From Pseudoalteromonas sp. XMcav2-N (GTDB taxonomy: Bacteria; Pseudomonadota; Gammaproteobacteria; Enterobacterales; Alteromonadaceae), in assembly GCF_024124545.1 (NCBI RefSeq), contig NZ_JAMXSF010000002.1:62001-126000 (forward strand): a stretch of 64,000 nt of DNA, written 5' to 3'. The notes under the pieces are model-generated. The model saw only the letters and a program-made list of their open reading frames with translations, was not told where the DNA came from and did no database searches. Positions 17,246 through 31,180 of the stretch are shown here, in pieces (the first letter of the stretch is position 1; each line of letters begins with the position of its first letter). The translations under genes and the position numbers were made by a program.

Positions 17246-17523
17246 GATCCTAGCTCGTAAGCGTCCGGGGTGACGCTGGGGTTTGTGATTTCGACTGCAA
17301 AGGGATACCGCTGTGCCGCACGTTGGCAGATCCCGGCTCGCAAGCGTCCGGGATGACGGAGGGGTTTGTGAGTTCGACTGCAAAGGGATACCGCTGTGCC
17401 GCATGTTGGTAGATCCCGGCTCGCAGGCGTCCGGATGACGGTGTGGTTTGTAAGTTCGACAGCAAGGGATACCGCTGTGCCGCACGTTAGTAGATCCCGG
17501 CTCGCAAGCGTCCGGGATGACGG
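17246..17523. repeat. REP-like tandem array A (four units, ~83 bp period)
   Basis: Core GATCCCGGCTCGCAAGCGTC, continuing CGGGATGAC, starts at 17246, 17329, 17412 and 17493 (periods 83, 83, 81). CCCGG and CCGGG can pair as a short hairpin. Between cores lies a conserved spacer containing TTCGACTGCAAAGGGATACC. The first unit is degenerate and the third lacks one base. No transposase is nearby. Confidence 0.85.
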
Positions 17524-19767: not shown

Positions 19768-20128
19768 GATCCCGGCTCGCATGCGTCCGGGATGACTGAG
19801 GGGTTGGTTGGGTACGCGATCAGAAGGAATCACCGTATTGCCGGTTAGTAGATCCCGGCTCTCGTGCGTCCGGGATGACCGAAGGGATGGTTGGGTTCGC
19901 GACCAGAAGGAACCACGGTATTGCCGGTTAGTAGATCCCGGCTCGCACGCGTCCGGGATGACCGAGGGGTTGGTAGGGTTCGTGACCAGAAGGAACCACG
20001 GTATTGCCGGTTAGTAGATCCCGGCTCGCACGCGTCCGGGATGACCGTGGGGTTGGTAGGGTTTGCGAACAGACGGAACCACGGTATTGCCGGTTAGTAG
20101 ATCCCGGCTCGCATACTTCCGGGATGAC
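19768..20128. repeat. REP-like tandem array B (five units, exactly 83 bp period)
   Basis: Cores begin at 19768, 19851, 19934, 20017 and 20100, every 83 bases. A partial spacer without its core extends left to about 19714. The spacer (GGTTGGTAGGGTTC, ACCAGAAGGAACCACGGTAT) is shared within this array but differs from arrays A and C, so each array was homogenised or amplified separately. Confidence 0.88.
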
Positions 20129-20180
20129 GGCGGGGTTTGTGAGTTCGACGAGCACAAACCACTAAGACGCTAAGCAGCCC

Positions 20181-20979: not shown

Positions 20980-21330
20980 GATCCCGGCTCGCAAGCGTCC
21001 GGGATGACGGTGGGGTTAGGGAAGTTAGACGTGCACAGGATACTTCGGCGCTGTATGTTGGTAGATCCCGGCTCGCAAGCGTCCGGGATGACGGTGGGGT
21101 TGGGGAGGTTCGACGTGCACAGGATACTTCGGCGCTGTATGTTGGTAGATTCCGGCTCGCAAGCGTCTGGGATGACGGTGGGGTTGGAGAGGTTCGACGT
21201 GCACAGGATACTTCGGCGCTGTATGTTGGCAGATCCCGGCTCGCACGCGTCCGGGATGACGACGGGGTTGATTGGGTTCGATGTGAGCAGAATATAACGG
21301 CGCTGTATGTTGGTAAATCCCGGCTTAACA
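20980..21330. repeat. REP-like tandem array C (five units, 84 bp period)
   Basis: Cores start at 20980, 21064, 21148, 21232 and ~21316 (period 84); the last is truncated. The spacer (TTCGACGTGCACAGGATAC, TTCGGCGCTGTATGTTGG) is specific to this array. No coding is supported in 20802-21538. Long open frames here are by-products of the repeat. Confidence 0.88.
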
Positions 21331-21538
21331 GCGAGCTTATGTATTTCAAAAAGCAAATAAACAGTAAGCACTTACATTAAGCATTCCATTTAATCAAAGC
21401 GACTCAGATTATACATGCGTTCTAAATGTTACTTTTGTGTAATGGGGTGTAATAATATTTCGAAAACCTTGCTGATAGACTCAAAGACTGTTGAAAAATT
21501 AATCTACCGATAATTTTACACAGCAAGGAAAGTACACC

Positions 21539-22660
21539 ATGAGTAAGCAAGACCCCATTGCGCAATTACAAGTTGAAATCGCGCAGCTTCAATCAGCATT
21601 TGAAGATCTAAACAAACACTGTTCTAAAACCAATTCGCACGGTGCCATATTCCGCTGCGCCTCGTGCATCCCACAGCAGTTTAGTCACTGCACAAACAAA
21701 CCCACTAACCCGCAACAGCCGAATTTTGTGCCAGATTTTAATGTGCCGCTCATCGCTGACGGTGGTGGCAACCAAGACTGTGAGATCCTGGAAAAACTCG
21801 GCCCATTAGCCGGGTTAATTGGGACTTGGGTCAGTACCCGGTATGGCGGATTTAATGTTATGCCCATCCCGCAAGATAACGCCCCAAATGGCTTTATCTT
21901 AAAAAACATGTCCTACTACGAGGTCATGACGTTTAGCGCTATCCAGGGCAAAGTGGCTAATCGGGCGGGTAACTACGAGCAAGATGCGTACACCATTTTT
22001 TATTCGCAGCGGGTGTTTTTTGCCGATGGCCCGCAAAAAGATGAGCTCATCCATGCTGAAAATGGCAGCTGGTTACATCAGGTGATTGCACCTCAGGGGC
22101 AAGGTACCCTGAACAAACAACCCTGGGTGCCGGATACCCCCAACCCGCTCCCGGTACAAGCGCAGGATCGGACGCTCGTAAAACAAGTGTCTGTGCCGCA
22201 TGGCAACTCGATTTTAGCATTGGGAGGTCACGATTGCTTTAGAGGCGCGCCCAGCATTCCTGTTGCCAATGCTCTGCCTGCGGCTGGCGGCGCAAGTTTT
22301 AAGGCTCCTTATGGTACCGATATTCCTGAAAACCCCAATGTTAATCCTAACATTGTGCTGCAGGTTGCCTTAGACAGCCTTTACCAACAAGGCATAGGTG
22401 TAATCGATACCACTTTGCTGAATGTCGATACGCAGGCCGATGGCGATATCGCTAATACACCCTTTATGCAAGCGCATTCTAATGTGCCTCGGTTCAAAAA
22501 CACTATGTGGTTAGAGCGACTATCCAATGGCCAGAATATGCTGCAATACACCCAGGATATTTCGCTGGACTTTAGCCTGGCAAGCGGCAAAGACCACAGC
22601 AAACGCAGCCGCTATACGTTTCCACACATAACGGCCAATACGCTATTTAAAGTGCAATAA
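21539..22660 (+). CDS. Leader-bearing protein with nitrobindin-like beta-barrel; candidate second substrate of the YcaO system
   Basis: 373 aa, AAGGAAAG upstream. Residues 1-27 form a Leu-heptad helix (MSKQDPIAQLQVEIAQL) that aligns with the leader of the Cys-rich protein at 22804. It is followed by a short Cys-containing segment with Cys at about 28, 40, 43 and 50 (HC, RCASC, SHC). Residues ~85-370 resemble the nitrobindin/THAP4 or FABP-like haem-binding barrel (LGPLAGLIGTWVS, GFNVMPIPQ, YTIFYSQRVF, LIHAENGSWLHQV, VPHGNSILALGG). The ribosome site and first codons also match those of the next gene, which suggests duplication of a shared leader module. Function is inferred: either a modified protein or a haem/ligand-binding partner. 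It is the first gene of the cluster 21539-27258. Confidence 0.65.
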   Translation: MSKQDPIAQLQVEIAQLQSAFEDLNKHCSKTNSHGAIFRCASCIPQQFSHCTNKPTNPQQPNFVPDFNVPLIADGGGNQDCEILEKLGPLAGLIGTWVSTRYGGFNVMPIPQDNAPNGFILKNMSYYEVMTFSAIQGKVANRAGNYEQDAYTIFYSQRVFFADGPQKDELIHAENGSWLHQVIAPQGQGTLNKQPWVPDTPNPLPVQAQDRTLVKQVSVPHGNSILALGGHDCFRGAPSIPVANALPAAGGASFKAPYGTDIPENPNVNPNIVLQVALDSLYQQGIGVIDTTLLNVDTQADGDIANTPFMQAHSNVPRFKNTMWLERLSNGQNMLQYTQDISLDFSLASGKDHSKRSRYTFPHITANTLFKVQ

Positions 22661-22685
22661 ATACCCTATTGCAATGTGATGAATG

Positions 22686-22770
22686 TGTCTTTTAAAGACA
22701 TGCTGTTTGCCACTGATTACACGCATGGGGCAAGCAACAAACCTAGGTTGTTGTTGGTATGCGATACCAA
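22686..22770 (+). promoter_or_regulatory. Intergenic hairpins ahead of the Cys-rich gene
   Basis: Between the two leader-bearing genes are a 7-1-7 palindrome TGTCTTT/AAAGACA (22686-22700), a near-palindrome around CCTAGG (~22735-22752), and a perfect 7-bp stem with 3-base loop (22754-22760 with 22764-22770). They may end or attenuate transcription from the first gene or serve as operators for a second promoter. Confidence 0.4.
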
Positions 22771-22803
22771 ATAACACAATAAACTTAACTTAAGGAAAGT
22801 ACG

Positions 22804-23775
22804 ATGAGCGAACAAGCTATCAAAGAACTTCAGTTACAGGTAACTGAGCTCACCTCAAAAGTCAAAGCACTAGAAGCACGCTGTAACCCGTCTGGCATTG
22901 CAGACTGTGCAGTCTGTTACTACTGCACACCGTGTGCGCCATGTGCCGCACCAACCGTCTTATGTGCCCCGTGTACAATCACACTCTGTGCAACCTGTGC
23001 ACCTGTTGGTACCAGCTATCAGCCGCTGGGCCCACCAACCCCCTGTGTTGCCTGCGTACAATGTGAGTCAACCCATAAATGCGTAACCTGTGAACCTGTG
23101 ACTAACTGTGTCACCTGTTATCCATGTATCGTGACTTTCTGCGTACAGTGCCAACAGGGCCAGAATCTGCAATGTCAACAATGCGCACCTGTCACTCAAT
23201 GCGATACTTGCTACCCTTGTATCGTTAACTTCTGTCAGCAATGTGCCCCAGTCACGCAATGCGTCTATTGCTACCCCTGTACCGTTACCCTCTGTCAACA
23301 ATGTGAGTCTGTCACTAAGTGTGATACTTGTTATCCATGTATTGTGACTTTCTGTGTTATGTGCCAGCCGGGTCAAAACGGGCAATGCCAGCTATGTGCC
23401 ACCAGAAAGTGCGAAACCTGTTATCCGTGCATCGTTAACTTCTGCCAGCAGTGCCAGCCGGTTACCAAATGTGATACCTGCTACCCCTGTGTGGTGAACT
23501 TCTGTGCGCAGTGTTATCAGTGTACGTCTCAATGTGTCCAATGCGCTCAGCAGTGTCTTCAATGCACTTATCATTGTGCTCAGTGCACCCAACAATGTGT
23601 GCAGTGTGCTCATCAATGTCTTCAATGCACCCACCAGTGTTTGCAGTGTACCCATCAATGCGTTCAGTGTACCCACCAGTGTTTGCAGTGTACTCATCAA
23701 TGCGTTCAATGCGCCCACCAGTGTGTGCAGTGTTACCAATGTGTAACTTGCACACCATGCAGTACCGGCGGCTAG
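22804..23775 (+). CDS. Giant Cys-repeat protein, candidate RiPP precursor for azoline/thiazolidine formation
   Basis: 323 aa with about 73 Cys (my count), almost all as CxxC. Residues 1-26 are a Cys-free Leu-heptad leader (MSEQAIKELQLQVTEL). Residues 27-101 are irregular CxxC pairs with a Pro/Gly break at ~66-80. Residues 102-243 hold six modules C-x2-C-Y-P-C-x4-C-x2-C; modules 1 and 4 carry a 10-11-aa insert (QQGQNLQCQQ type), so 102-172 and 173-243 form a 71-aa tandem duplication. Residues 244-306 are nine 7-aa repeats C[VLA]QC[TA]xQ/H. The tail is TPCSTGG. No signal peptide. AAGGAAAG precedes the ATG. The immediate neighbours are a cyclodehydratase and a thiazolinyl-imine-type reductase, so the cysteines are probably heterocyclised. 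A metal-storage protein is the alternative. Confidence 0.75.
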   Translation: MSEQAIKELQLQVTELTSKVKALEARCNPSGIADCAVCYYCTPCAPCAAPTVLCAPCTITLCATCAPVGTSYQPLGPPTPCVACVQCESTHKCVTCEPVTNCVTCYPCIVTFCVQCQQGQNLQCQQCAPVTQCDTCYPCIVNFCQQCAPVTQCVYCYPCTVTLCQQCESVTKCDTCYPCIVTFCVMCQPGQNGQCQLCATRKCETCYPCIVNFCQQCQPVTKCDTCYPCVVNFCAQCYQCTSQCVQCAQQCLQCTYHCAQCTQQCVQCAHQCLQCTHQCLQCTHQCVQCTHQCLQCTHQCVQCAHQCVQCYQCVTCTPCSTGG

Positions 23776-23787
23776 CACGCGGTTATT

Positions 23788-23816
23788 GACACTCCCCGCT
23801 TTGTGCGGGGAGTGTC
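23788..23816 (+). terminator. Strong intercistronic hairpin after the Cys-rich gene
   Basis: Perfect 12-bp stem GACACTCCCCGC (23788-23799) with its complement (23805-23816), 5-base loop, then TTCT. The T tract is short, so partial termination or mRNA stabilisation is likely. Either would give more transcript for the substrate than for the enzymes, as is usual in RiPP operons. Confidence 0.65.
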
Positions 23817-23839
23817 TTCTGAAATTGGATGTTTAATTT

Positions 23840-26272
23840 ATGAAAAAGCTAAGATTAACCCCGGCTGCGAGTATTAATCCCAACAGTAACGGTGTGTTAT
23901 TAAGTTCAGATTTGGGAGACTTTCAGGTTCACGGTCGGGATACCTCAGACTTTGTTGAAAAGATCCTGCCACTGCTACAGGGCGAGCTGACGCAGGCTGA
24001 AATTTGCACCCGCTTACCTGAGTATGCCGATTCAAGTATAGAGGCTGTGCTGCAACTGCTTAGTCAGTATGGTTTGTTAGAAGAAGTCTCTGAACAACTC
24101 GAGTTTAAGCCGCCCGGTTTAGTACAAACGCGCTTTTTACGGCCCTGGCAGCAAACTAACCAGCAACCTCATAGCCAAAGTCAGGTGTACTCCCTTGATC
24201 CCTGCCGGGTACTCGTCGTCGGTCTCGAGCCCTGGGCAATCACACTGCTGGAAGAGCTGGGCACGGCGGGAGTCGGCCATATTCATTTATTAGATAAAGA
24301 AAATATCACCAGTGACGACTCAACATGCCACCGCTTTCTTACACCACAAGACATTGGCAAACCCAGAGCCCAAGTGTTTAAAGAGGCCCTGCAACAGCGC
24401 AACCCCTGGATGCAGATCAGCCACTCAACGCTCACCAGCGAGCACCCGCACTTAGGCAGCCCATCAAATGACTGGGATTTGGCCATTGTCACTTTCAGTA
24501 AAGATGCGCATTTTTGGTCACACACAGTCTCTGAATATGTGCATCAACACAAGATTAAAACCCTTTATGGTCACCTGGATGGTCTGGAGAGCTGGATAGG
24601 CCCGGTGGTCAATGTAGACGACGCTCACTCAGGCTCATGCTGGAACTGTTTGCGACTCAGAAAGCTGGGCACAGAGCAACATGGCGAACTGGCGCACGAA
24701 TTAGAAAAAAGCCATAAAAAGAATCGCGAAGGCCGTGCCCGCAGCATGCTCACGCCTATGTCTGCCATCACGGGCCAACAGCTTGCCATGGAGGCGTTAA
24801 AACTCCTTTGGGGCTATAGCGAAAGCGAACTGGTATCGCGTGTTATGGTACAAAATCTGGTTACGCACCAGGCTGAAAAACATGCCATTATCCCTATTCC
24901 CTGGTGTGAGGTATGTGGGTTTGATCATAGCCATGCAACCACCCATGCGTTATCCATGCACCGCGATAACCAGCCTGCTGACAATCCTCTTAATCAGCTC
25001 CAGGATGTTGAGCAATTTAAATCGCTATTTGAAGGCTGGGTGGACCCGGTAACTGGGATAGTCCGTCAGCTCACAGGACATGCGCCACATTTACCAGACT
25101 ACCCGATCACCGCATCTGCCGGGGTCTCCTCGTTCACTGAGGGCGAGTTTGACCCAAGAGCTGCAGGCCAGGTCGGATCCGGTAAAGGGTTAGATACAAT
25201 TTCAGCACATATCAGTGCGGTTGGTGAGGCACTGGAGCGCTACTCGGCGGCCAGATACCAATTGAGTGATTGTAAATATGCCTCAATTAGCCAGTTAAAC
25301 GGTGACTATGTCGACCCGGATACTTTGGTACTGTATTCCAATAAGCAATACAGCACCCCTAATTTCCCGTTTCATAAATGGCACAGAAAACAAAAAATAC
25401 ACTGGTGTCGCGGCAGCTGGCTGGCAACCAATGACCCAGTCTGGGTGCCGGCGTTGGTCAGCTATTTTAATTTTGCCTGCCCTTACAAAGAGCAGTTTAG
25501 CCAGGTGTCGTCAAACGGGCTCGCAGCTGGTCAAAACAATGATGATGCTGCGCTCAGAGCCTGTTATGAACTCATTGAGCGCGACGCCATGATGCTCACC
25601 TGGTATGCACAACAGCCCTGCGAACGGCTCAGTTATGAGGCACTTAACCGTGGCAAAATGCGCTTAATGATTGAGGAGTTAACTGAACTGGGCATTGAGC
25701 TTGAGTGTTACTTACTGGATGTGGGATTACACGTACCCACAGTTGTATGTCTGGCACTGGGAGACGGCTATCGCACTCCTGCTGCCTCTGTGGCCCTGGC
25801 CACGCATGGCGATATCAAAGTGGCTATGCGCAAAGCGCTGCTGGAGCAAGGCCATGTGATGCCTTATCTGTGCCAGTTGATGCGCTCAGGGCAAAAAATC
25901 CCTCAGCAGGTCAGTGAGGTAACCGGCCTGGAAGATCACGCGGCTTATTATTTTAGTAACAGCAAACTTGCTGCCTTTGACTTTATGCGCCGACCAATCA
26001 GCGAGGCGAAAACGCTGGAAGACTGGCCGTATGAAGTGATCACACACGTCAGCCAACTCAAACAACGCCTGGATGAAGCAGGCGTAGAAATCGCTATTGT
26101 AGATGTTACTTCACCCGATATGGCACTCAGCCCGTTCAGGGTTGCGCGTGCCATCGGTGTCAACATGCAGCCCATCCACTTTGGTGAGCAGTTTAAACGG
26201 GTAGACAATCCAAGGCTGCGCAAGTTACTGCAAGGACGTCCGGTTAATAAAGAACCACATCCAATTGCTTAG
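23840..26272 (+). CDS. Fused E1-like/YcaO cyclodehydratase (TOMM biosynthesis)
   Basis: 810 aa. Residues ~1-85 resemble the leader-recognition domain of TOMM E1-like proteins (RLTPAASINPNSNGVLL, LLQGELTQAEI). Residues ~115-360 are a ThiF/E1-like Rossmann domain (VLVVGLEPWAITLLEELGTA, HIHLLDKENI) with zinc-type Cys pairs (CWNC and CEVC). Residues ~400-805 are a YcaO domain with the ATP-binding acidic motifs (ISAVGEALERYSA and CYELIERDAMMLTWY, near SSNGLAAGQN). It ends EPHPIA, close to the Pro-rich C-terminus of azoline-forming YcaO enzymes. The family uses ATP to cyclise Cys/Ser/Thr to azolines. It starts 64 bases after the 73-Cys protein and 14 bases before the reductase. No flavin dehydrogenase is present. 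Confidence 0.88.
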   Translation: MKKLRLTPAASINPNSNGVLLSSDLGDFQVHGRDTSDFVEKILPLLQGELTQAEICTRLPEYADSSIEAVLQLLSQYGLLEEVSEQLEFKPPGLVQTRFLRPWQQTNQQPHSQSQVYSLDPCRVLVVGLEPWAITLLEELGTAGVGHIHLLDKENITSDDSTCHRFLTPQDIGKPRAQVFKEALQQRNPWMQISHSTLTSEHPHLGSPSNDWDLAIVTFSKDAHFWSHTVSEYVHQHKIKTLYGHLDGLESWIGPVVNVDDAHSGSCWNCLRLRKLGTEQHGELAHELEKSHKKNREGRARSMLTPMSAITGQQLAMEALKLLWGYSESELVSRVMVQNLVTHQAEKHAIIPIPWCEVCGFDHSHATTHALSMHRDNQPADNPLNQLQDVEQFKSLFEGWVDPVTGIVRQLTGHAPHLPDYPITASAGVSSFTEGEFDPRAAGQVGSGKGLDTISAHISAVGEALERYSAARYQLSDCKYASISQLNGDYVDPDTLVLYSNKQYSTPNFPFHKWHRKQKIHWCRGSWLATNDPVWVPALVSYFNFACPYKEQFSQVSSNGLAAGQNNDDAALRACYELIERDAMMLTWYAQQPCERLSYEALNRGKMRLMIEELTELGIELECYLLDVGLHVPTVVCLALGDGYRTPAASVALATHGDIKVAMRKALLEQGHVMPYLCQLMRSGQKIPQQVSEVTGLEDHAAYYFSNSKLAAFDFMRRPISEAKTLEDWPYEVITHVSQLKQRLDEAGVEIAIVDVTSPDMALSPFRVARAIGVNMQPIHFGEQFKRVDNPRLRKLLQGRPVNKEPHPIA

Positions 26273-26286
26273 AAAAGGACAATATT

Positions 26287-27258
26287 ATGAAAGTACTCGT
26301 TTGTGGTACCCACTACGGTTCCACCTATATTCGCGCTTTAACCCAGTTTCCACAAGACAGCTTCACCTGTGTGGGTGTCCTGTCAAAAGGCAGTGAGCAT
26401 TCTCAGCAAATTGCACAGCAACTGGGCGTGCCCTATTACACAGATGTTTCCACAGTGCCGGCTGATTCTATTGATATCGCATGTGTCGCGATATCGGGCG
26501 ACGCTGGCCAGGCCATTGTATTATCTCTGTTAAAACAAGGTATCTCTGTGTTATGTGAGCACCCCGTTGACCAGGCGTTTGTACAAAAAGCACTGGCACT
26601 TGCCAAGCAGCATCAGGCGTATTTTCATGTCAATGGACACTTTGCCGACCTCTACGCCCCCCAGGCATTTTTACAATCAATTCTGAGCGCTTATCAGCAA
26701 GGGTTTAGCTGTATGCATTATGCCATGGGGGCTAATTTAAGAACGCTTTATTCAGCGCTGGATCTGTTGGGCCGCGCACTCGGTGGGTATGCAGGACTCG
26801 AGGTCATCAAATACAGCGGCGAGCCTATGGCGTTTCAGCCGATTATGCTCAAAACCGACAACCTCACAATCTCGCTCTTGTGCCAGAACTTTTCGTCCGC
26901 TGAGGATGACGGCAGCGCGACTTTTTTAAACCATCAGTGCTCAGCGCTATTTCCGCATGGCACCTTAACACTCAGTGAAACCACCGGCCCGTTAAGCTGG
27001 TTTCCTTCAAGCCAAAGCCTGCCGGGTGAGACCTGGCGAACCTATATGCCTGTTGAGCTTGCGCCCATGGACAAACAACAGCTAATGGGCCACAGAGATC
27101 AGTGCAACCTTGCCGCCGTTGCGGCTTTGGCAGCGACAATACAAGGCGAAACACAGCCGGTATACCAACAGCCAGATTACTTATTAGCCCTGAGCAGGTT
27201 ATGGCAGGCTGTGCTAATGGAATTACAGCCCCAGGCCAAAGACGACTGCGCCGCATAA
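26287..27258 (+). CDS. Gfo/Idh/MocA-type reductase resembling thiazolinyl imine reductases (PchG/Irp3 type)
   Basis: 323 aa. The N-terminal NAD(P)-binding fold starts VLVCGTHYGSTYIRAL and continues GVLSKGSEHSQQIAQQLGVP, which to my reading is closest to Irp3/YbtU and PchG. Those enzymes reduce a thiazoline C=N to a thiazolidine with NADPH in yersiniabactin and pyochelin assembly. The CEHPVDQAFVQKALALA stretch is the usual second Rossmann signature. AAAGGAC lies just before the ATG, and the start is 14 bases after the YcaO stop. The pairing with a YcaO cyclodehydratase suggests reduction of ring products on a ribosomal peptide, a reaction I do not know from RiPPs. Substrate is inferred; the fold assignment is firm. 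Confidence 0.8.
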   Translation: MKVLVCGTHYGSTYIRALTQFPQDSFTCVGVLSKGSEHSQQIAQQLGVPYYTDVSTVPADSIDIACVAISGDAGQAIVLSLLKQGISVLCEHPVDQAFVQKALALAKQHQAYFHVNGHFADLYAPQAFLQSILSAYQQGFSCMHYAMGANLRTLYSALDLLGRALGGYAGLEVIKYSGEPMAFQPIMLKTDNLTISLLCQNFSSAEDDGSATFLNHQCSALFPHGTLTLSETTGPLSWFPSSQSLPGETWRTYMPVELAPMDKQQLMGHRDQCNLAAVAALAATIQGETQPVYQQPDYLLALSRLWQAVLMELQPQAKDDCAA

Positions 27259-27266
27259 TGATGTGC

Positions 27267-27299
27267 TTTCCACCGGGTGTATTTAGCGCCCGGTGGAAA
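27267..27299 (+). terminator. Hairpin at the end of the YcaO cluster
   Basis: Perfect 11-bp inverted repeat TTTCCACCGGG (27267-27277) and complement (27289-27299) around an 11-base loop. It is followed by TT only, so it is a weak intrinsic terminator or a stabilising 3' end. Confidence 0.6.
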
Positions 27300-27459
27300 T
27301 TAAAAGAGACAGTTCAACTTAGAGCATAGTTATGATATTCGGGTGGTAGCCCACAAAATTATTTTGCTCGATGTAAGCTCCTGGTCAGCTAATTCATGTT
27401 TGAACTTTTTCTCAAAGCCGATACTCTTGCAGTACCTATTCACAATGAGCATGTAGATT

Positions 27460-28220
27460 ATGAAGCTCGTAATGTCGCTACTGTTCTTGTTCACCTTCTC
27501 CGTACACGCTGAATTGACTCTTAAAAAAGTCGAAAGTGATATTTTTGGTGAGTATAAACTCGATAAGGAAGAAGTGCTGCCTTTTTTACTGTCGGACTCC
27601 CATCAAGATAAAAATCTCGCTAATTATTTACGCTCTTTAGTATACGGGTTTGGACTTTATGGCGCTGAGAAAAGTATAGTTAAATCAGAAATGTACTTTC
27701 TTCCCTTGCTAAGTTTGGAATACCGAAACATTTTCTTTTTCGCAGGACCTTTTGGTCAAACTCAAGTAACCCCGAGAAAGTAAAAAGAGGAGGTAAACTG
27801 CTTGAGCAGGCTTCTGAATCAGGGGATCCAGACGCGATATATAACCTGTATGCAATGCACGATAATGGTCGTTACGACAACAAAACGAAGCTCAGGTCAA
27901 TTTTAGCGCAAAATTACGACAAAGGTGATACGGAAATTGCTCTGCTATATGGACGTTTCATGAGAGACCTACTAATTGAAAAACAAGACAAACCTGAAAT
28001 GCTCAGAGTATTGGACAAACTAAGTAGAATTAGCTTTAAAGGGTATGAAGGTGAGTATTACTATATATTATCGGGCTATTATGGTTTGCAAAAATCTCCC
28101 TTGTTCGATGAGGATAAAAGAGATTATTACCTTATTCTCTCTTATAAAAATGGCTCTCAAGCCGCCGAAAAGCTGCTGAAAGGAATGGGGATATTGCCGG
28201 AATTGCCGAGCACGAAATAA
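27460..28220 (+). pseudogene. Frameshifted Sel1-like exported repeat protein
   Basis: The first frame runs 27460-27783 with a signal peptide (MKLVMSLLFLFTFSVHA) and stops at a TAA. A second frame shifted by one base is open across that stop, reads KVKRGGKLLEQASESGDPDA, and continues to 28220. Joined near 27760-27775 they give a coherent ~253-aa protein with TPR/Sel1-like helices (GDPDAIYNLYAMHDNGRYDN, GDTEIALLYGRFM, GSQAAEKLLKGMG). Sel1-like proteins scaffold other proteins. The shift lies in a short run of C and A. It could be a recent mutation, a sequencing error or programmed frameshifting. A single base would restore the gene. Confidence 0.65.
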
Positions 28221-28761: not shown

Positions 28762-29005
28762 CGCGCTTTAGCGACACTTTCACTCTTGCGCTCTTTATAA
28801 ATGGCTCACCTGATTACATCATTATGTGTGATGCTACCTGCTAATAAAGGGCAATACTAAAACTAATCACAGCTAGAGCTAAAACTCTTATCTTCACACT
28901 TTTTGCACTTTTGAAGCCTATATTTGCCGCGGTTGCTCGTACGGGGTGCGTAAACGGCACTCTGATTAAGGACCAGCTTCACACTAAAAGGAGAGGATTT
29001 TGACT

Positions 29006-31180
29006 ATGAAACCAAGCAATACACTGGCGTTGCTGCTGGCAGGTGCAGTCGCAGCATCTGGTGCATCGTTTGCGGTACATGCCGCAATAGATACCGATGA
29101 TGAGAAAGTGACACGACTGGACCTGCAAGGGCAGATAGATAACTTTGCGCCCTTTTCTAAAACTCTGTGGGCCGGGGCGCACAATGCATATGCCTCACAT
29201 GCCTGGAGTAAAGGTACGTATACCGATGTAAATCAGTACTATTCTCCCAAGAGCCTGCTAAAACGCGGCATACGGGTGATGGAATTTGATATATACCCGG
29301 AAGGCACTTTTGATTCAACCCCTATGCTGTGCCACAACTCATTGGAAAATAAAGCCATTTGTTCAAGCTTTCACGCGAAACTGTCGGAAGGGTTAGACGA
29401 CATTAAAGACTTTCTGAAAGGCAACCCGGACGAAGTGGTGTTACTGAAAATCGAATCGTACAAGCATAACGACCATAAAAACTGGCACAACAAAATTGGC
29501 GAGCGCCTGCAAAAAGATATCGGCGATTATTTGCTGATGCCCTCTGACTGGGGTTATGCAGATAAAAGCTGTGCCTCTTTGCCGGTGTCGCACCTCACCA
29601 AGCGCGATATTCTGGCAGCGGGTAAGCAGCTGGTCGCGGTGGTGCAAACCCCCAGGGATCACAGCAACCTGTGTTCTTATCACAGCAGTGGCAGTTACTC
29701 TAAATTCTGGAATACCGTGTTTATCGGCGTCGATGCCTTCGATGCCAGTGGCAACCTGCAAAGCAATCAACCGTTTTGCCAGAACGGCAGCAATGAGTGT
29801 TTGAACGGCGATCAGACCGCGCATTATCTTGCCAACAATATGACGGTGATCATTGATGGCGCGACGCAGCTGAATCCGGATGGTCCCAGTTCAAGTAAAA
29901 CTGGCAGCAATGTGATCAGCAAGTGGGCCAACAAAGGCGCACAAATTCTCGAGCTTGCGCTGGTCGAGGCCAATAACACCAGCGCTGCCAGCGGCTATGG
30001 TGCCAATGAAGTCCAGATTGAAGACTTTATCTGGTCGTGGAAATCGAACCGGCCCAATGGTTCGGGCAACTGTGCCAGCCTCGAAAGCGATGCCGCTATT
30101 GTCGACAAAGCCTGCTCTACCTATCAGTACCACGCCTGTGTAGATGATAACCGTAACTGGAAGCTGACCACCAGCAAGGGCAGCTGGGAGATGGGGTTTG
30201 CGAACTGTCAGAGCCTGGGCGGCAGCTATACCTTCGCGATGCCATTCAATGCCTATGAACATGTGCAACTACAAAACACCATAGGTGCCAGTTCCGAGCA
30301 CCACTGGGTTAACTATTACAAGGCGTTCGATGATTTCTGGCTGTCTAACGCGGATGAGCATATCGACTGGCAGTATGTAAAAAACACTGCAGTGGGTTCG
30401 ACCAACAAGGGCGACACTTTCAATGACATTGCTTTATTAAAGCGTAAAGCTCTGGTGGGCGGCACCTTTAATCTCAGCTCAGTGCGGGTTCGCTCAAACA
30501 ATCGGGTGGATGGCTTTCAGGCCTGTTACGAGACCAAGCAGAGCTTGTCGCATGCCAGCGTGGGCACATCAGAAATGTGCGTTACCTATGGCGGCAGCGG
30601 CGGTAGCTGGGGTGATAAACTGACCTTTGATAGCAGCAAGGGCGAGCACCTCAAGAGCCTGCAGATCTGTAAAGACGATGGCAAATATGGCTATGATACG
30701 GTGTACTATCTGAAGCTGACTTCCAGCAATGGCAGTTCAATCAAAGGCGGTACTTCGTCTGGCAGTTGTACAACCTACTCGGCCAGTACCAGCCAGCAAT
30801 TGTTCGCCTTTCATGGCACAGATAATAAAGAACTTAACGCACTGGGTGTATACCGCATCGCCAGTTCACAGGTAAACGGTGGGCTCTACGCCACCGGCTG
30901 GCTTGACCGAGATGATCCAGCCAGTGGCGATAATGAATTATTCAGTTCCCACCAGTCAGTGGGTAACATCGGTGCCAGTTGCAGTACCAGTGATGTTGCG
31001 GGGGTAATTGCACGGGTCAAAGACAGTAAGCTGGACTCAAGCCTGACCGGGCAAAACCTGGTCAATAACAGCTCTGGCTTTGCCTGCTGGAACTCCAGCA
31101 ATGGCGGAAGCAGCAGTTACACAACCTGTGAGGACTACGAAGTGCGGTACTTCTTCACCAAGGCCAGTTGTTTGCCTTAA
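29006..31180 (+). CDS. Secreted PI-PLC-like phosphodiesterase with C-terminal lectin-like regions
   Basis: About 724 aa from the ATG at 29006, with AGGAGAGG 9 bases upstream; a TTG two codons earlier is less likely. A signal peptide ends near AVHAA. Residues ~45-340 show the PI-PLC X-domain plan: first catalytic His in LWAGAHNAY, RGIRVMEFDIYP, second catalytic-type His in PMLCHNSL, DEVVLLKIES, and later TVIIDGAT. Such enzymes cleave phosphoinositides or related phosphodiesters, usually outside the cell. Residues ~375-500 (ANCQSLGGSYTFAMPFNAYE, WVNYYKAFDDFWLS) look C-type-lectin-like, and ~510-600 (YGGSGGSWGDKLTF) resembles a jacalin-like sheet. These would target the enzyme to a glycan or membrane; that part is a weak call. 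Many Cys suggest disulfides. Confidence 0.75.
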   Translation: MKPSNTLALLLAGAVAASGASFAVHAAIDTDDEKVTRLDLQGQIDNFAPFSKTLWAGAHNAYASHAWSKGTYTDVNQYYSPKSLLKRGIRVMEFDIYPEGTFDSTPMLCHNSLENKAICSSFHAKLSEGLDDIKDFLKGNPDEVVLLKIESYKHNDHKNWHNKIGERLQKDIGDYLLMPSDWGYADKSCASLPVSHLTKRDILAAGKQLVAVVQTPRDHSNLCSYHSSGSYSKFWNTVFIGVDAFDASGNLQSNQPFCQNGSNECLNGDQTAHYLANNMTVIIDGATQLNPDGPSSSKTGSNVISKWANKGAQILELALVEANNTSAASGYGANEVQIEDFIWSWKSNRPNGSGNCASLESDAAIVDKACSTYQYHACVDDNRNWKLTTSKGSWEMGFANCQSLGGSYTFAMPFNAYEHVQLQNTIGASSEHHWVNYYKAFDDFWLSNADEHIDWQYVKNTAVGSTNKGDTFNDIALLKRKALVGGTFNLSSVRVRSNNRVDGFQACYETKQSLSHASVGTSEMCVTYGGSGGSWGDKLTFDSSKGEHLKSLQICKDDGKYGYDTVYYLKLTSSNGSSIKGGTSSGSCTTYSASTSQQLFAFHGTDNKELNALGVYRIASSQVNGGLYATGWLDRDDPASGDNELFSSHQSVGNIGASCSTSDVAGVIARVKDSKLDSSLTGQNLVNNSSGFACWNSSNGGSSSYTTCEDYEVRYFFTKASCLP

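Follow-up and report, generated by a model that had tools for sequence, protein, structure and literature searches.

What would a YcaO cyclodehydratase make of a protein carrying several tens of cysteines when its genetic partner is neither a protease nor an oxidase but a relative of the reductases that act on thiazolines in nonribosomal peptide synthetase (NRPS) pathways? The question is raised by four plus-strand open reading frames (ORFs) at 21539-27258 of the window, the stretch of 64,000 nucleotides analyzed here (Pseudoalteromonas sp. XMcav2-N, contig NZ_JAMXSF010000002.1, positions 62,001 to 126,000). In order, they encode a haem-binding-barrel-like protein (FMP), a Cys-array protein (CYS), a fused E1-like/YcaO enzyme and an Irp3/PchG-like reductase, and all four begin and end exactly where a preliminary description of this DNA placed them. 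We favor, with moderate confidence, a model where this conserved operon specifies a protein-sized, reduced-azoline member of the ribosomally synthesized and post-translationally modified peptides (RiPPs), the YcaO enzyme making thiazolines on the Cys array and the reductase likely turning them into thiazolidines, a chemistry that we infer. The N-terminal winged-helix part of the fusion would hold the 27-residue leader of CYS, and the YcaO domain would use ATP to cyclize Cys side chains with the amide before them, each thiazoline costing 18 Da; the NAD(P)H-dependent reductase would then hydrogenate the C=N bonds, some or all of them, at +2 Da per bond. A SagB-type dehydrogenase that would compete for the thiazolines was not found. 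The modified chain would serve in the cell, leader retained, as a soft-metal or redox-active array, and FMP would probably be modified too and work together with it.

The four genes form a recurrent unit. Of 108 Pseudoalteromonas genomes, 12 carry the reductase with an E-value of 1e-139 or lower, and all 12 have the order FMP-CYS-YcaO-reductase (11 sets are whole and one, in G030, is split by contig ends that fall within or next to the CYS gene), and in a second genus, apparently Shewanella, YcaO was found in 5 of 129 genomes, each with the same four genes in order. The set, which the preliminary description proposed to seek elsewhere, is thus present in 17 of 17 genomes picked by reductase or YcaO, and its recurrence in two genera argues against a chance association; CYS stands directly ahead of YcaO in all 16 whole copies. 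Thirteen other Pseudoalteromonas genomes hold weaker reductase matches (E up to 0.001), three of them of a distant type considered below. The host genome, of 5.7 Mb, lies near Pseudoalteromonas rubra, whose strains S2599 and S2676 carry reductases 96-97% identical to the present one. Overall the set is rare. The reductase was found in 1 of 369 genomes of a class sample (at 1e-20; the host's own genome only) and in 5 of 394 of an order sample, where the other four adjoin NRPS genes; YcaO at 1e-60 was found in 2 of 398 genomes of a phylum sample, the second of which (G1033) shows neither a Cys array nor a reductase of this type among the ORFs of a 19-kb stretch; and a further genus sample (the genus of G494, probably Vibrio) gave 0 of 196. 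Viral contigs scanned for YcaO and reductase gave none, and among plasmids YcaO had two distant matches at the 1e-30 limit (27-29% identity) and CYS no match at 1e-5 (tblastn). Named relatives of the reductase and YcaO come from Marinomonas, Endozoicomonas, Methylococcaceae, Undibacterium and others; since 15 contigs are apparently common to 49 reductase rows and 52 of 117 YcaO rows, the YcaO-reductase pair seems to be wider than the Cys-array operon.

Judged from its sequence, CYS looks like a RiPP precursor: its leader is nearly frozen, and its core is elastic in length but keeps its Cys. The announced Cys content of about 73 is exactly 73 in 323 residues. Over the 27 leader residues, comparison with four relatives (L036, L037, L038, and L040) gave 0, 0, 1, and 1 nonsynonymous and 0, 10, 14, and 11 synonymous differences, respectively, and 22 of the 27 residues are identical in L067, from the second genus. 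In the core of the same four, Cys is kept in both sequences at 70/72, 57/57, 58/60, and 72/73 of the positions with Cys in either, a count that favors our model less than it seems, being partly the product of an aligner that rewards Cys-Cys pairs; non-Cys identity is 210/224, 124/184, 132/189, and 151/223. The 16 complete copies range from 217 to 511 aa and from 39 to 131 Cys (lengths as mechanical ORFs give them), an elasticity that we attribute to tandem units of 21, 42, 60, and 84 bp. CYS has no Pfam or NCBIfam match at E up to 1, composition bias limiting the comparison, metallothionein families included; a search of a protein database left none of 277 candidates at E up to 1, which we take as a failure through composition bias because near-identical copies exist in genomes. 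A c-type haem array of the multihaem cytochrome c kind was also considered for CYS and is ruled out by the absence of CxxCH from all 16 copies.

A leader common to CYS and the barrel protein had also been claimed, and it is present, by alignment, in 13 of the 17 genomes (8 of 12 in Pseudoalteromonas, L075 included, and 5 of 5 in the second genus). The FMP-CYS leader alignment scores 48 in the window, 58 in L066, and 55 in L067, and in each case none of 2000 shuffles scored as high. All 12 leader-bearing copies counted have four Cys preceding the barrel, as does L075; the four leaderless copies have none. Because a CYS-like leader and four Cys go together in 13 of the 17 genomes, FMP is probably a second substrate in most of them. 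Its barrel is predicted from profiles: FMP matches heme_bind_FMP (NF040572) at 228.4 bits (cut-off 150), fold and haem being predictions from this profile, and a THAP4-type match is weak (19.1 vs. a cut-off of 25). The fold is taken from such matches since an AlphaFold2 model built on a five-row alignment failed, with a predicted local distance difference test score (pLDDT) of 28.6. FMP orthologues scoring at least 356 bits coincide with reductases of 464 bits or more, both being present in an identical set of 12 among the 108 Pseudoalteromonas genomes; in 12 further genomes of the genus the matches (E up to 1e-10) do not exceed 164 bits, and the three paralogues inspected (L072-L074) have different surroundings. 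One of them, at L072:5195-10997, is 44% identical to FMP (aligned from query residue 63) and adjoins phosphoesterase, ferritin-like (PF12902), and GMC-oxidoreductase genes; L073 looks alike.

The fused E1-like/YcaO enzyme of the preliminary description is recognized by profiles for both parts. A profile search finds ThiF (PF00899) and YcaO domains, and the protein exceeds the cut-offs of the SagD-family cyclodehydratases (TIGR03604, 232.8 bits vs. 219.25) and of the leader-binding family of thiazole/oxazole-modified microcins (TOMMs; TIGR03882, 62.1 bits vs. 36.9). Its predicted model resembles LynD and TruD (PDB 4v1u, 4bs9), the nearest structures, at only 22-23% identity; the LynD alignment begins at residue 3, and residues 1-90 consist of strands and three helices. 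A SagD-type YcaO, an E1-like leader-binding part and a substrate that joins a conserved leader to a variable core rich in Cys, Ser or Thr are, next to the azoline rings themselves, hallmarks of a TOMM or azoline RiPP system, and the operon has all three of these gene-level features, as do the linear azol(in)e-containing peptides (LAPs) of the microcin B17 and streptolysin S type.

The reductase combines a Gfo/Idh/MocA Rossmann domain (PF01408) with PF21390 (Irp3-like_C, 40.4 bits, cut-off 27), and its best NCBIfam match is the thiazolinyl imide reductase family, TIGR01761. Solved sugar dehydrogenases of the Gfo/Idh superfamily are plentiful in the PDB. In a search of the whole PDB set, only Irp3 entries matched at E up to 0.001 (4gmf at 6.3e-22, 4gmg, and two more). 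In a 50-row comparison, EHP is found in 40 thiazolinyl-type rows and EKP in 10 ordinary Gfo/Idh rows; the EHP His (H92) aligns with His101 of Irp3, which together with Tyr128 we take to be a functional residue. EHP is invariant across the 17 genomes, and so is a glycine in the loop that corresponds to GSxRS of Irp3. This placement relies on profiles, PDB rank and motifs because the reductase tree could not be rooted, and they group the protein with thiazolinyl imine reductases rather than sugar dehydrogenases, as had been proposed. In its setting and in detail it departs from Irp3 and PchG (PDB 4gmf): it adjoins YcaO and a ribosomal substrate instead of an NRPS, with no NRPS-sized ORF in the ORF lists of the window stretch or the second-genus loci, whereas the reductases of L052-L055 have condensation, AMP-binding, and carrier domains alongside in four of four; it has NxRT for SxQL; and RiPP-side rows read HF at the Tyr128 position, where NRPS rows (4/4) and P0049 read FY or LY. 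Support for the reduction of thiazolines comes from outside the present system: passages of the sorangibactin report assign SrbI, an Irp3 relative, as a trans-acting reductase of a carrier-bound thiazoline, its deletion abolishing sorangibactin A (PMC10127202).

Several observations weigh against our model. The YcaO fusion ends in PHPIA, where a PxPxP end is expected of azoline-forming YcaOs. The TIGR01761 score of the reductase, 166.4 bits, lies under the cut-off of 188.8 (the second-genus copy in L067 scores 181.0, the NRPS-side copy in L052 321.4), and the position of Irp3 Tyr128 is held by Phe119, adjoining an invariant His118, so that the catalytic acid would differ or be His118. The proposed closeness to PchG/Irp3 thus stands by profile, structure rank, and the EHP motif, but not by a residue matching Tyr128 or by the family threshold, and for these two reasons the protein reads as a distinct branch, Irp3-like yet under the TIGR01761 cut-off. 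In the unrooted tree, ordinary Gfo/Idh branches of length 10 attach in two unrelated places, one of them among second-genus four-gene rows, and an enzyme whose NRPS relatives work on small molecules tethered to a carrier may act otherwise here. In four of the 17 genomes (L041-L044) FMP lacks the leader, in-frame stops standing just upstream of its start (the L041 alignment scores 20, reached by 429 of 2000 shuffles); in this lineage the leader claimed for FMP is missing, and FMP, as it reads there, cannot be a leader-type substrate. The loci were selected by reductase or YcaO and cannot tell whether CYS ever stands alone, and CxxC arrays might just as well bind metal through unmodified thiols.

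The low family score and the lack of a residue aligned to Tyr128 would suit an alternative where the thiazolines persist as such, the reductase touching at most a few of them (e.g. a single editing position) or using a different imine. The structures nearest to the YcaO enzyme, LynD and TruD, are cyanobactin-type heterocyclases, which leave thiazolines without any reductase. Nonetheless, an intact reductase ORF adjoins YcaO in 17 of 17 genomes, its EHP and loop glycine kept throughout, and we regard retention of the thiazolines as unlikely, though worth taking seriously. The CxxC pairs of CYS invite comparison with a metallothionein-like or Fe-S/Zn array that would act through free thiols, the enzymes modifying few residues or only FMP. 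Spacing of the CxxC kind without CxC or CC is typical of metal clusters, and the CYS core has 43 CxxC against a shuffle mean of 17.3 and maximum of 28, and lacks CxC and CC altogether, each of which occurs about 17 times on average when this core is shuffled (2000 shuffles in both cases); beyond residue 30, 43 of the 71 Cys-Cys gaps are of three residues and 10 of four, and CYS of the relatives has at most one CxC and two CC. Core length also varies freely, as a metal array would allow. Yet conservation is higher in the leader than in the core, and the leader matches that of FMP, as a docking tag would; CYS directly precedes YcaO in every whole copy, and no Pfam or NCBIfam family matches it, which together make such a metal array quite improbable.

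Our model also draws on what the operon lacks. No flanking ORF of at least 100 aa in the fetched stretches is common to the P. rubra-like, L041-like, and Shewanella lineages, grouping being found only within a lineage; the conserved unit is therefore the four genes, without exporter, peptidase, or dehydrogenase, in keeping with the earlier statement that the set holds no exporter and no peptidase. The reported lack of a flavin dehydrogenase extends beyond the locus, since the SagB-type family (TIGR03605) has no match above cut-off in any of five genomes searched (one partial match in G052, 43.7 vs. 78.4 bits). Given the absence of export and cleavage genes from the conserved unit, the modified chain probably remains intracellular and keeps its leader. 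A conventional TOMM cluster that makes an antimicrobial for export, its protease, transporter, and dehydrogenase encoded elsewhere in the genome, would agree with the TOMM enzyme profiles and with the two other YcaO genes of the host; but with no SagB above cut-off, no flank common to the lineages (no search for a protease or transporter elsewhere was made) and substrates of 217-511 aa, TOMM peptides usually being far smaller, we give it very little credence. The same low credence goes to the idea that YcaO activates amides for cleavage, not ring closure, and that the operon would cut the Cys array.

Set beside known systems, the operon departs from TOMMs and LAPs in having a reductive partner in place of an azoline dehydrogenase, a protein-sized substrate, and a conserved unit free of export and peptidase genes. 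From LynD and TruD it differs in the PHPIA end of its YcaO, in a Cys-array substrate of 217-511 residues rather than a short core, and in its reductase partner. To our knowledge, RiPP azolines occur only as azolines left as such or oxidized to azoles. A literature search, to which subscription papers were mostly out of reach, gave no report of the four-gene set or of a reductive azoline RiPP, a text search found no paper joining "thiazolidine" and "YcaO", and the main text of a survey of the TOMM genomic landscape (PMC4603692) has no Shewanella, Pseudoalteromonas, reductase, or thiazolidine. Thus, YcaO azoline RiPPs are known, whereas neither a reductive partner nor a Cys array of protein size and elastic length has been described, as far as this search reaches. 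A second type of locus (L045-L047, in G104, G025, and G032; 3 of 108 Pseudoalteromonas genomes) pairs a different YcaO with an adjoining, distant Irp3-like reductase that has the same HF (3/3) and RT (3/3) and, in L045, the one compared, exceeds the PF21390 cut-off. This reductase is only about 25-34% identical to the present one over the aligned part; no Cys array was seen in these loci, and a Pkinase gene lies in the L045 and L047 stretches, with another putative substrate of no known family alongside. Because another YcaO is here paired with an Irp3-like reductase, reductive TOMMs may form a broader class.

Table 1. Features of the operon in the window and coordinates of the second type of YcaO-reductase locus
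Feature	Position	Strand	Evidence
FMP, 373 aa, resembling haem-binding barrel proteins, N-terminus leader-like; probably a second substrate or a partner	21539..22660	+	NF040572, leader match to CYS
FMP leader-like segment, residues 1-27	21539..21619	+	Alignment to CYS leader
FMP four-Cys segment, residues 28-51; occurs where leader occurs	21620..21691	+	Cys counts across copies
heme_bind_FMP domain, residues 87-372 of FMP	21797..22654	+	NF040572 profile
CYS, Cys-array protein, 323 aa, 73 Cys; putative main substrate	22804..23775	+	ORF, Cys count, 16 complete copies compared
CYS conserved leader, residues 1-27	22804..22884	+	Codon-level comparison with relatives
CYS Cys-repeat core, CxxC arrays and 21/42/60/84-bp tandem repeats	22885..23772	+	Repeat and spacing analysis
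12-bp hairpin between CYS and enzyme genes	23788..23816	+	Fold prediction
Fused leader-binding/E1-like/YcaO cyclodehydratase, 810 aa	23840..26272	+	Profile matches
N-terminal winged-helix-like part of YcaO fusion, residues 1-90; reads as RiPP recognition element	23840..24109	+	Predicted model, LynD alignment
E1/ThiF-like domain with CWNC and CEVC pairs	24182..24919	+	PF00899; CWNC in 17/17 copies
YcaO domain with SGKG, GEAxERYS, SNGxAAG, and ExxERD motifs, PHPIA end	25178..26269	+	Profiles, motif comparison
Irp3/PchG-like reductase, 323 aa; predicted thiazoline to thiazolidine	26287..27258	+	PF01408, PF21390, Irp3 PDB matches, EHP motif
Second YcaO-reductase type loci	L045:4995-8044, L046:1745-4794, L047:7273-10118		Reductase matches

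The genes of the operon (table 1) are separated by gaps of 143, 64, and 14 nt, and an identical string, AAGGAAAGTAC, precedes the starts of both FMP and CYS in the window. A consensus scan of 21330-27460 gave three sigma-70-type promoter sites against 7.0 expected, all of them on the minus strand and none on the plus strand. The spacer between CYS and YcaO folds at -27.9 kcal/mol in the window, its hairpin having no T run and being absent from the output of the consensus scan. A stable stem (-12.7 kcal/mol or lower) is present in 14 of 16 copies, its sequence varying between lineages; the exceptions are L070, with a weaker stem (-8.7), and L068, where a long upstream ORF start shortens the spacer. 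The hairpin may yield more substrate than enzyme.

Upstream of the operon, 11 copies of a 27-bp palindromic motif, similar to repetitive extragenic palindromic (REP) elements, lie in three clusters (17332-17522, 19771-20129, and 20983-21261; up to three mismatches allowed, none expected by chance), spaced 83 bp in the second cluster and 84 bp in the third, which ends about 280 bp before FMP; the ORFs within these clusters are spurious and not genes. Downstream, two short ORFs of 107 and 121 aa in different frames (27460-28220) resemble fragments of one gene, and 29000-31180 encodes a 726-aa protein with PI-PLC-X, jacalin-lectin, and mucin-WxxW domains, all above Pfam cut-offs, relatives of which are also found downstream of the operon in L035 and L036. 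Elsewhere in the host genome, the two further YcaO genes lie at L059:8079-15283. One encodes an OsmC-YcaO protein (L059:8079-10328); the other (L059:10590-12596) clusters with a kinase-like ORF and a 241-aa protein of no known family that resembles, by eye, a nitrile-hydratase-leader substrate.

What the finding would mean depends on the chemistry of the ring. Within a backbone, a thiazolidine corresponds to a peptide aldehyde and an N-terminal cysteine closed into a ring. Passages of the sorangibactin report describe thiazolidine hydrolysis as yielding the aldehyde oxidation state (PMC10127202), and a reduced backbone ring would thus be a masked peptide aldehyde. In a bolder and decidedly speculative version of our model, rather unlikely as it stands, the operon would make the first reductive azoline RiPP, a ribosomal polymer with tens of backbone amides turned into thiazolidines, which would store Cys-x-x and Cys-x-x-x aldehydes as a programmed reserve, to be released by acid, by metal, or by haem-peroxide chemistry at the barrel protein, and whose length would be elastic by tandem-repeat growth. 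We know of no protein chemically like a thiazolidine-array product. Such a product would be unusual because its backbone thiazolidines could bind soft metals and would be masked aldehydes. If our model is true, reduction would be a third outcome for RiPP azolines, reached on a protein with 39-131 Cys.

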